This document shows, piece by piece, positions 47,443-51,358 of a stretch of DNA of 64,000 bases. Under the pieces are notes generated by a model. That model did no database searches. It saw only the letters and a list, made by a program, of their open reading frames with translations, and had not been told where the DNA came from. Numbering within the stretch: the stretch's first letter is position 1; every line of letters begins with the position of its first letter. This DNA is from Acidimicrobiaceae bacterium. Its GTDB lineage: Bacteria > Actinomycetota > Acidimicrobiia > Acidimicrobiales > Ilumatobacteraceae. The position numbers and the translations under genes were made by a program. The DNA lies in NCBI GenBank assembly GCA_947467375.1, contig CANIHL010000003.1:1-64000 (forward strand). The letters are read 5' to 3'.

Positions 47443-49341
47443 CTAGATGGACTTGAGAAATTGCGCCACCTCTGAGAATTCAATGGTGCGTTTCATTGGT
47501 GGCAACGTGGAGACAAGTTTTTTCCCGTATCCCTTAGTGGCAAGTCTCGGATCAAGAATCGCTACCACACCTGTGTCTTTGCGCGACCGAATCAATCGAC
47601 CAGCAGCCTGAGCAAGTTGCGTAGCTGCAAGTGGAATATCAATCTCGCTAAATGAAGTTTTTCCAATTTCGTCGCGTCGGGCACTCAGCAATGGATCATC
47701 CGGACGTGGGAACGGGATTTTGTCAATGACAACAAGGCTGAGGGTTTGTCCAGGAACATCAACGCCTTGAAAGAATCCAGCGGTTGCAAACAGACAAGAC
47801 GATTCCTCTGCAGCGAATGCATCAACGAGTGCCATTTTCGGCAAGTCATCTTGACGCCAAACTTTGTATTCAAGACGCCTTGACATCTCATCCGCTGCGG
47901 CGTGCATTGCGCGATAAGTGGTAAATAGGGCCAGGGTTCGGCCTTGTGCTGCATTGATTAACTTTTCTAATTCACCATGTACCGCGTCATCTCGTCGCGG
48001 ATCATTTGGTAATGGCAGATGCTTTGCACAATACAAAATTGCTGAATTCTCGTAATCGAAAGGGCTTCCAACATCAATTGCATCAACTTCATCTTCCTCG
48101 AGGCCCACGCGAGCAGGCATTGCGAGCGGAATCGTGGCACTCGTGAGGATTGCTGTTCGCTTTGACCACACACCGCTATTCAGAGAAGGGCCAACGTGGA
48201 GAGGCGCAAGTTCCAATACGGGCCTGTCTTTGCTTCCGCTCACGAATGCAACGGTTCGTGAACCCGCGGTGAGTGAGCCATCGATGACATCGATCAATCG
48301 ATTGCTGAGCATTTGACCCCTCAATATTCGTTGTTTCGCTGATTCGTCATTGCTGGAGATCGCTTTCAATCCAGAAACGGCTTCATCAATTTTGAGTCGC
48401 AACCGTGCAAGTACATCTTGGATGTCGTCGGGAAGTGGGAGGGGTACGCGCTTGTCGACGTCGCCTGCGATGTATCCACCAAATTCGGAAGCCAATTGTT
48501 GCAGCGATCCGGACAGAGCGTCATCTCGCACGATTGAGCGCAGTGCACCAATGACGTGTTGGATGCTTCCCGGACTGATTGCCATGCTGACTGAAGCGCT
48601 CATCACATCTTCAAGCTGATGGGCCTCATCAAAAATGACTACATCGTGTTCTGGAAGAAGCGCCCCATCGGTCGCGACGTCCAAGCCATAAATATGGGTG
48701 TTGACAACAATGACGTCAGCGATAGATGCGGAATCTCGAGCACGTTCTGCAAAACACGTTTCTCCTGACGGACACCTACTTGCGCCAGGACATTCATCGC
48801 TTCCAATACTGACGTGCCGCCATGCTGCATCACGTGGGCTCCACGACAAATCCCCTGAATCGCCAGTGTTCGTGGTTTCCGACCAAGCAACAAGCTTGTC
48901 GATGTCGGACTTCACTTGAGTGCTGAACTCTTGTAGATCAAGTTTGTGTTGCTTCGGCTCTTGAATTTCTGCGATGCGTTGTGCGCATAGATAATTGTTT
49001 CGGCCCTTCAGAACTGCCCATGTGATTTCGCGTCCGATAAGTGGTGTCAATGCAGAGGACAACACTGGTAGGTCGTGTTTGGCGAGTTGATCTTGCAAGG
49101 CCTTCGTATATGTTGAAACCACGACGCGTTTGCCTGAAGCAATTGCAGGCACGAGATAACCCAATGTTTTGCCGGTTCCTGTTCCTGCTTGCACGATGAG
49201 ATGTCGTTCATTGTCAATCGCGTCTGCAATTGCTCTCGCCATCGTCACTTGTCCAGAACGCGCCTCAACATTGGGAAGCGTGTCTACGACTGCCTGAAGA
49301 AGATCTACGACATCATGTTCGTGTTGCGCTTTAGCTGGCAT
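47443..49341 (-). CDS. DinG/XPD-like ATP-dependent helicase
   Basis: VQAGTGTGKTLGYLVPAI; DEAHQLED; FFQGVDVPGQTLSLVVIDKIPFPRPDDPL; QAAGRLIRS; alternative start at 49359. Confidence 0.92.
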   Translation of the reverse strand: MPAKAQHEHDVVDLLQAVVDTLPNVEARSGQVTMARAIADAIDNERHLIVQAGTGTGKTLGYLVPAIASGKRVVVSTYTKALQDQLAKHDLPVLSSALTPLIGREITWAVLKGRNNYLCAQRIAEIQEPKQHKLDLQEFSTQVKSDIDKLVAWSETTNTGDSGDLSWSPRDAAWRHVSIGSDECPGASRCPSGETCFAERARDSASIADVIVVNTHIYGLDVATDGALLPEHDVVIFDEAHQLEDVMSASVSMAISPGSIQHVIGALRSIVRDDALSGSLQQLASEFGGYIAGDVDKRVPLPLPDDIQDVLARLRLKIDEAVSGLKAISSNDESAKQRILRGQMLSNRLIDVIDGSLTAGSRTVAFVSGSKDRPVLELAPLHVGPSLNSGVWSKRTAILTSATIPLAMPARVGLEEDEVDAIDVGSPFDYENSAILYCAKHLPLPNDPRRDDAVHGELEKLINAAQGRTLALFTTYRAMHAAADEMSRRLEYKVWRQDDLPKMALVDAFAAEESSCLFATAGFFQGVDVPGQTLSLVVIDKIPFPRPDDPLLSARRDEIGKTSFSEIDIPLAATQLAQAAGRLIRSRKDTGVVAILDPRLATKGYGKKLVSTLPPMKRTIEFSEVAQFLKSI

Positions 49342-50023
49342 GGACCAACTTGAGTGCATTATCTAATTCGTGTGCGTCGAAGTCTGGCCATGTTCGTTCG
49401 GTGAAGTACACCTTTGCGCCCATGATTTGCCATAAGAGAAAATTGGAAATTCGCGATTCTCCAGAGGTGCGCACGACTACATCGACAGGTGGTAGTTCTG
49501 GTGCGTACAGGTTGTTTGCAATTTCGTGCGATGTTATGTCGAGCCCAGAATGTTGCTTAGTGCGTGCATGTTGGGCTGCTCGGAGTAACTCGGCACGACT
49601 TCCATAATCAAAGGCCACAGTCAGCACCATGCCTGTGTTGTGTGCGGTGTCTTCTATAGCTTGCTGAATTGCACGTTGTATAAAAGCCGGGGTTTTGGAT
49701 CCCGGTTCATCGAAAGGCCGTCCGATCCATTGAATGCGCACATTGTTGGCATTGAGCTCCGCGATTCGGCCAAAGAGGCGTTTGTGCAGGGAGAGGATGT
49801 GCTTTACTTCGGCTGGTGGCCGCACCCAGTTCTCGGTTGAGAAGCCGAAAACAGTCAGCCATCCGACGTTTCGTGCGGCGCACACACGCACGACTTCGGC
49901 CAAGTTATCTTCACCCGCTGTATGGCCTTCAGTGCGAGGAAGGCCGCGTCGTTTTGCCCATCGTCCATTGCCGTCCATGATGCAAGCGATATGGACTGGA
50001 GATTCGGGATTCGCCTGTTCCAT
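49331..50023 (-). CDS. uppS: Isoprenyl (undecaprenyl) diphosphate synthase-like catalytic cis-prenyltransferase
   Basis: HIACIMDGNGRWAKRRGLPR; LTVFGFSTENWVRP; VDVVVRTSGESRISNFLLWQ; ends ...ELDNALKLVHAS* without the usual RRFGG tail. Confidence 0.92.
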   Translation of the reverse strand: MEQANPESPVHIACIMDGNGRWAKRRGLPRTEGHTAGEDNLAEVVRVCAARNVGWLTVFGFSTENWVRPPAEVKHILSLHKRLFGRIAELNANNVRIQWIGRPFDEPGSKTPAFIQRAIQQAIEDTAHNTGMVLTVAFDYGSRAELLRAAQHARTKQHSGLDITSHEIANNLYAPELPPVDVVVRTSGESRISNFLLWQIMGAKVYFTERTWPDFDAHELDNALKLVHAS

Positions 50024-50072
50024 TCCGAACACCTTACTGATGCAGGCAGTGATGGCGTGCGACAATAGTGGT

Positions 50073-50642
50073 GTGGCTGACGGTTCTTCATTGCGACATG
50101 TGCTTGTTGTTGGGGGATCGCTTGATCAATGGAAGGCCATGTCCGTTTCTGATTGGTCTCTGTATGTCGCAACCTTGCGATCATCGGTCGAACATGTTGG
50201 AGCGCAGTGGTTAACGGTGTATCCGTATTCTGGTATTCCAAACGTCAGTGACGACGGTGATCTCGTTCGCAAGATTTCAGAATCATGTAATGCGTCGCTC
50301 GTTAACGGAAAAGTGATTATTCGAGGAAAGACGTCTGTCGTTATTGATGTCTGTGCGGATGGGCAGCAGCGGTTTGTGCGTGCTGTTAATGGCATGTCGA
50401 CGGAAAAGATCACCGAGAAGAATTTGGCAAGTGCAATTTTGGATCCAGCATCAAGCGAACCGGATCTTGTGGTGATCTTTGGAGACCCAACGCAACTACC
50501 GCCATCGCTTGTATGGGAACTTGCCTATAGCGAGCTGGTGTATCTCAACACGCAGTGGCCTCACTGCAACAGTGAAGACATTGAGTTGGCCATTAATGAC
50601 TTCCAGCGCAGGGATCGTCGCTTTGGTGGCGTTGACTCATGA
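50073..50642 (+). CDS. Divergent, apparently non-catalytic cis-prenyltransferase paralogue (NgBR/Nus1-like in logic)
   Basis: C-terminus PDLVVIFGDPTQLPPSLVWELAYSELVYLNTQWPHCNSEDIELAINDFQRRDRRFGGVDS aligns with the UppS C-terminus; lacks MDGNGRW and RTSGExR; GTG start chosen. Confidence 0.7.
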   Translation: MADGSSLRHVLVVGGSLDQWKAMSVSDWSLYVATLRSSVEHVGAQWLTVYPYSGIPNVSDDGDLVRKISESCNASLVNGKVIIRGKTSVVIDVCADGQQRFVRAVNGMSTEKITEKNLASAILDPASSEPDLVVIFGDPTQLPPSLVWELAYSELVYLNTQWPHCNSEDIELAINDFQRRDRRFGGVDS

Positions 50643-51358
50643 CGCTGTATCGCGATAAAGGAATAGTGCTGCGAAGTTACAAACTCGCGGAGTCTGACCG
50701 CATCGTTGTGCTCATGACCGAGCATCATGGCAAAGTTCGTGCTGTTGCCAAAGGTATTCGTAAAACTAAATCCAAGATTGGCGCCAGGCTCGAACCCATG
50801 AGTCACGTGGATGTGCAGCTGTATAAGGGCAGGGAATTAGACACGGTGTCGCAGGTGGAATTGATTGATTCCTCTGCTCGATTACATAACAACCTTGACA
50901 AGTTGACACAGGGGATGTCGATGCTTGAGGCCGTTGATCAAATAGCAGAGGACCGAGAGCCGTCCCCTCATTTGTACCGCATGTTGCAGGGTGCACTGAA
51001 CGCGTTGATGGAGCAGGAATCGCCCGTCATGCTTGCATCGTTTTACTGGAAGCTGTTAGCGGCAGAGGGGGTGAGCCCGCAGGTGCGATTGTGCGTTGCC
51101 TGTGGTTCTACACAAGATCTCGTAGCGTTCGACATTTTTCAAGGTGGGGTGCAATGTCGGTCTTGTCGCACAGGAATCAGTATTTCTCAACCAGCCATTG
51201 ATTTATTGCAGCAGGTTTTGGGTGGTCATCTCAATGTTGCATTGGCTCAACCCGAATCACCAGCAAGTTTTGAGTTGCAGCAACTTGCAACTCAGGCAAT
51301 GGAGCATCACATTGAAAGACGGTTGCGGTCGGTCGCAATGTTCAGTCCTCGTCACTAG
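50639..51358 (+). CDS. recO: DNA repair protein RecO
   Basis: DKGIVLRSYKLAESDRIVVLMTEHHGKVRAVAKGIRKTKSKIGARLEP; CVACG...CRSC zinc motif. Confidence 0.95.
   Translation: MTLYRDKGIVLRSYKLAESDRIVVLMTEHHGKVRAVAKGIRKTKSKIGARLEPMSHVDVQLYKGRELDTVSQVELIDSSARLHNNLDKLTQGMSMLEAVDQIAEDREPSPHLYRMLQGALNALMEQESPVMLASFYWKLLAAEGVSPQVRLCVACGSTQDLVAFDIFQGGVQCRSCRTGISISQPAIDLLQQVLGGHLNVALAQPESPASFELQQLATQAMEHHIERRLRSVAMFSPRH

Follow-up and report, generated by a model that had tools for sequence, protein, structure and literature searches.

Complementary motif loss in two divergent UppS-type genes points to a probable heteromeric cis-prenyltransferase in Ilumatobacteraceae

The window, a 64,000-nucleotide stretch of genomic DNA from a member of the Ilumatobacteraceae, a family of aquatic actinobacteria, contains two divergently oriented genes of the undecaprenyl-diphosphate synthase (UppS) type. 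UppS is a conserved, essential and homodimeric bacterial enzyme that makes the cell-wall lipid carrier, and it is a drug target. The locus comprises the following features:

47443 to 49359, minus strand: DinG-like helicase, downstream of the truncated uppS with a slight overlap; borders the ancestral uppS slot on its other side.
49331 to 50023, minus strand: truncated UppS (230 aa), putative catalytic subunit; catalytic and IPP-binding residues complete, AYxE glutamate and C-terminal RxG missing.
50024 to 50072, no strand: divergent intergenic region of 49 bp, with promoter-like boxes near both start codons.
50073 to 50642, plus strand: degenerate cis-prenyltransferase paralogue (189 aa), putative non-catalytic subunit ("partner"); AYSE and RRFGG present, equivalents of Asp26 and Arg194 lost.
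50639 to 51358, plus strand: recO, directly downstream of the partner gene.

Promoter-like hexamers occur on both strands between the two start codons, TAAGGT at 50031-50036 (minus) and GACAAT at 50061-50066 (plus). In close relatives such hexamers lie 6-7 bases from each start codon, and the exact intergenic hexamers are common to close relatives only. Because they crowd the start codons in a very short divergent region, two leaderless transcripts, one per subunit, are suggested. The start codon of the partner gene is GTG at 50073; an in-frame ATG at 50052 is unlikely to serve instead, since two close relatives carry ACG at that site. At the far end, the last 29 bases of the truncated uppS (49331-49359) are shared with the DinG-like gene as predicted, which may in fact begin later, at the ATG at 49341.

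The translated open reading frame of the truncated UppS reads MDGNGRW, FSTENW and RTSGESRISNFLLWQ, followed by IMGAKVYFTERTWPDFDAHELDNALKLVHAS and the stop. RTSGESRISNF is kept, and the Pfam Prenyltransf profile (PF01255) is matched from position 1 to 209 of 219 (E 1.7e-66). The chain ends at residue 230, which is the end of the cis-prenyltransferase domain. Alignment to E. coli UPPS (1x08) identifies the missing residues as Glu213 and Arg242-Phe243-Gly244, the latter being the RxG motif of the E. coli enzyme.

The partner presents the converse picture. Its match to PF01255 is confined to positions 125-219 of 219 (E 3.6e-13); its C-terminal end reads ELAYSELVYLNTQWPHCNSEDIELAINDFQRRDRRFGGVDS, also given as AYSELVYLNTQWPHCNSEDIELAINDFQRRDRRFGGVDS, and its counterpart of the MDGNGRW segment aligns as GG-x-x-x-[E/D/Q]-W. 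An earlier note on this DNA had described the two genes in these terms: a UppS with MDGNGRW and FSTENW but neither AYxE nor RRFGG, and, about 49 bp away, a divergent gene that lacks the catalytic motifs and retains AYSE and RRFG. Each of these points was confirmed here, as was its statement that the AYxE glutamate is E213 in E. coli, which the AYAE of the 1x08 alignment bears out.

Structure prediction, in which each chain was modeled singly, assigned the partner a cis-prenyltransferase fold, a test that had been set beforehand. The model (57 sequences) has a mean pLDDT of 87.8 and a pTM of 0.86, and that of the truncated UppS (86.3) is on par with it. The best solved matches of the partner model are cis-prenyltransferases, with a Foldseek value of 3.4e-08 to E. 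coli UPPS and a VIA-align Z score of 13.0 (rmsd 3.2 A over 163 residues, 22% identity). NgBR is not among the 50 VIA-align rows listed, which carries no weight either way. The first strand of the fold starts at residue 9, and the RRFGG tail is modeled with low confidence, as might be expected if it becomes ordered only within a dimer. The partner thus has a whole, degenerate fold of its own, which rules out an origin as the C-terminal fragment of a uppS that was simply cut in two.

The source genome (1.68 Mb) contains exactly two PF01255 matches, the pair described here. The pair was seen in nearly all of 101 Ilumatobacteraceae genomes, spanning 27 genera, and in most of the family the split has become fixed. 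The exception that emerged from this survey of relatives, which had been proposed in advance for co-occurrence and truncation, is a basal genus in which the ancestral uppS is still intact. A second, complete uppS elsewhere in the genome had been named as one of the findings that would refute a functional reading; none was found in the source genome or in three single-contig genomes (G012, 4,830,181 bp; G019; G038), which hold only the pair, and a hidden full-length copy is therefore ruled out. Many of the genomes are metagenome bins, and that of the source is 92% complete, which would make pseudogenization or an assembly artifact conceivable. However, the pair recurs across the 27 genera and in the single-contig genomes, and both chains are under purifying selection, with dN/dS values against the closest ungapped relative of ~0.12 for the partner and ~0.04 for UppS. 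This explanation is already refuted, and its residual probability is negligible.

Beyond the family, the surrounding order was surveyed (148 genomes, 51 families), and the best UppS listed for other families runs from position 1 to 219 of the profile. The exceptions are G196, with no match, and G203, with a weak match only (8e-15); the latter genome is 96% complete and has no RecO match, perhaps owing to an assembly gap. One further family (f81) had appeared to have short chains, and the one that was read has both AYAE and RRFGG. Among 198 genomes of the class, full-length matches to a partner profile (169-245 bits) occur in Ilumatobacteraceae only; matches outside the family reach at most 105 bits and mostly cover the C-terminal part, corresponding to the C-terminus of full-length UppS. 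Six metagenome-bin records (L123, L124, L137, L140, L141 and L142) that bear the name Bifidobacterium breve or Ferrithrix thermotolerans DSM 19514 contain a partner gene of the Ilumatobacteraceae type; the organisms are therefore probably misnamed.

The distribution of motifs was assessed in 101 non-redundant pairs and 84 non-redundant UppS without a recognized partner. The two genes of the pair are divergent neighbors in 101/101 cases. None of the 101 catalytic chains has YxE and none has RxG, so that in no case do AYxE and the C-terminal RxG share a chain with the catalytic aspartate. RRFG is present in all 100 complete partners, and the YxE pattern in 100 of 101. Both motifs occur in 81 of the 84 UppS without a recognized partner; the other three (L020, L066, L217) are also from Ilumatobacteraceae, and for L066 and L217 further searches located a partner that either lies on a different contig or matches weakly.

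Residues were compared, in E. coli numbering, across 54 full-length UppS, 32 catalytic chains and 30 partners. Asp26, Arg30, Arg39, His43, Phe70, Ser71, Asn74, Trp75 and Arg77, as well as Arg194, Glu198, Arg200 and Ser202, are invariant in the full-length enzymes and the catalytic chains. In the partners, Gly always replaces Asp26, a hydrophobic residue stands in place of Arg194, Arg30 is mostly Glu or Asp, and Ser202 is mostly Pro; Trp31, Tyr211, Glu213 and RRFG are invariant. Glu213 and RxG thus follow a pattern opposite to that of Asp26 and Arg194 across the chain types, and the loss is therefore complementary. Its recurrence in every non-redundant family pair excludes chance. Two features that mark heteromeric cis-prenyltransferases in general are present: one chain retains the catalytic Asp and the IPP-binding Arg and Ser and has no RxG, and a second, non-catalytic chain has the fold and RxG but has lost its catalytic residues. 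Evolutionary distances of the two chains correlate with each other no better than either does with RecO (partial r 0.34 given RecO).

In most of the other-family loci examined, dinG on the minus strand is followed by uppS and recO on the plus strand. The same order is found in the basal genus (G011), where a single full-length uppS occupies the slot. In the split genomes, dinG and the truncated uppS lie on the minus strand, and the partner gene and recO on the plus strand. The comparison indicates that the partner, rather than the truncated uppS, now takes up the position ahead of recO where uppS ancestrally stood. Its adjacency to the truncated gene could for that reason be merely historical, and the partner might serve another process, for example in a complex with another protein, having kept a UppS-like C-terminus by accident and inherited its neighborhood. 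Against this, RxG and AYxE, which have no role outside the active site of a cis-prenyltransferase, are invariant in it, and no full-length UppS was seen alongside the partner among the family genomes examined; such a role is very unlikely.

In a RecO-DinG-GlyS tree, G011 and the genus g23 form a clade (98) apart from two clades of split genera. The resulting trichotomy would be read most simply as the split having arisen once, after G011/g23 had branched off. The catalytic copies form a clade with a long stem that is not placed within the UppS of the order, and their source may be duplication or transfer; the C-terminal tree rests on few columns. The three genomes of the sister genus g23 (L083 and L084 in G023 and G057; L214 in G042) have nothing between dinG and recO, and both halves are thus jointly absent from the locus. 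Two of them encode elsewhere a single divergent UppS that is complete and groups with families f2 and f16, which suggests that the pair was replaced; no PF01255 or other cis-prenyltransferase match was found in the third, G042. The divergent UppS ends in RRRRKG or RRRRMG.

The joint absence bears on a further alternative, in which truncated UppS chains form, by themselves, a homodimer that is active despite lacking RxG, and the partner acts as a regulator or stabilizer with no role in the active site. Some cis-prenyltransferases do work without the motif, as MM_0014 does (PMC8131916), so the truncated chain might be active by itself. Human DHDDS alone is weakly active; in the complex, where NgBR gives it RxG, kcat is ~400-fold above that of the DHDDS homodimer (PMC7573591). 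A mere regulator, however, would leave unexplained why the partner retains precisely the two motifs lost from the catalytic chain while the rest of its site has decayed, and why both halves are missing together from the g23 locus. This alternative is improbable, less so than a role in another process.

The preferred reading is that the pair very likely constitutes an obligate heteromeric cis-prenyltransferase for an undecaprenyl-type lipid carrier, convergent with DHDDS/NgBR. Such a carrier is needed, since the source genome encodes three polyprenyl-phosphate-using transferases of the MraY/WecA type (PF00953). The truncated UppS would bind FPP, IPP and Mg2+ and carry out the chemistry, and the 189-aa chain would take up the dimer-interface position of a second UppS monomer. 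Its RRFGG tail, together with the AYxE glutamate, would enter the active site of the catalytic chain, as NgBR does for DHDDS; the residue distribution implies that this glutamate, too, may act in trans. In a homodimer, the AYxE and RxG of one chain serve the active site of the other. The partner lacks such a site, so these motifs of the catalytic chain would have become dispensable and then been lost. The one remaining site would combine Asp26 and the IPP-binding set from UppS with RxG and Glu213 from the partner, and a dimer with one active site needs exactly the observed distribution of residues. Complex formation, completion of the site in trans and the identity of the product are what we infer from these data. 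The earlier note had arrived at the same division of labor, and the sequences and models support it; none of the contrary findings looked for was made.

The same division of labor has been described for enzymes of humans, plants and some archaea. In DHDDS/NgBR (Rer2/Nus1), too, the catalytic chain lacks RxG and a non-catalytic chain of the same fold supplies it in trans (PMC7573591), as the partner would do here. Unlike NgBR and DHDDS, the Ilumatobacteraceae partner has no evident N-terminal membrane anchor and the catalytic chain no C-terminal helix-turn-helix domain, and both chains are nearer in sequence to bacterial UPPS than to the eukaryotic subunits. The partner profile scores 1.7e-22 against E. 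coli UPPS and 1.4e-6 against NUS1/NgBR, and the catalytic chain scores 176 bits against the T. fusca synthase and 107 against DHDDS. On these grounds the pair lies outside the DHDDS/NgBR family, though it would work like it, and its product is likely C50-55 rather than of dolichol length. The earlier guess of an independent origin gains support from the same profile scores and from the confinement of full-length partners to one bacterial family. It is thus quite likely that an obligate heteromeric bacterial undecaprenyl-diphosphate synthase arose, independently of the eukaryotic enzyme, on the stem lineage leading to most Ilumatobacteraceae, where two UppS copies lost complementary motifs, with one genus still in the pre-split state.

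A two-chain prokaryotic enzyme to which the pair can be likened by description is Methanosarcina mazei MM_0618/MM_1083, cited in PMC8131916 as a heteromeric cis-prenyltransferase for a glycosyl carrier lipid; it is archaeal, whereas the genes described here come from a single bacterial family and seem to have had a history of their own. A review assigns homodimers to bacteria and plants and heteromers to eukaryotes (PMC7839719), and in the open-access literature, with most subscription journals outside the search, neither a report of a bacterial heteromeric cis-prenyltransferase nor a paper on Ilumatobacter and undecaprenyl was found. With homodimeric UppS (E. coli, M. tuberculosis Rv2361c) the pair shares its fold, catalytic residues and presumed reaction. 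There, RxG already acts from the counter-subunit, and in the M. tuberculosis decaprenyl-diphosphate synthase its Arg extends into the active site of the other chain, as far as the catalytic Asp and the diphosphates (PMC6450523); all motifs lie in one chain, in contrast to their division over two genes in Ilumatobacteraceae. If correct, a bacterial example that is established in most of a family and has an unsplit sister lineage would indicate that the transition from homodimer to heteromer is repeatable. It would also offer small, apparently soluble proteins for testing the action of RxG and AYxE in trans, a question linked to human NgBR disease mutations.
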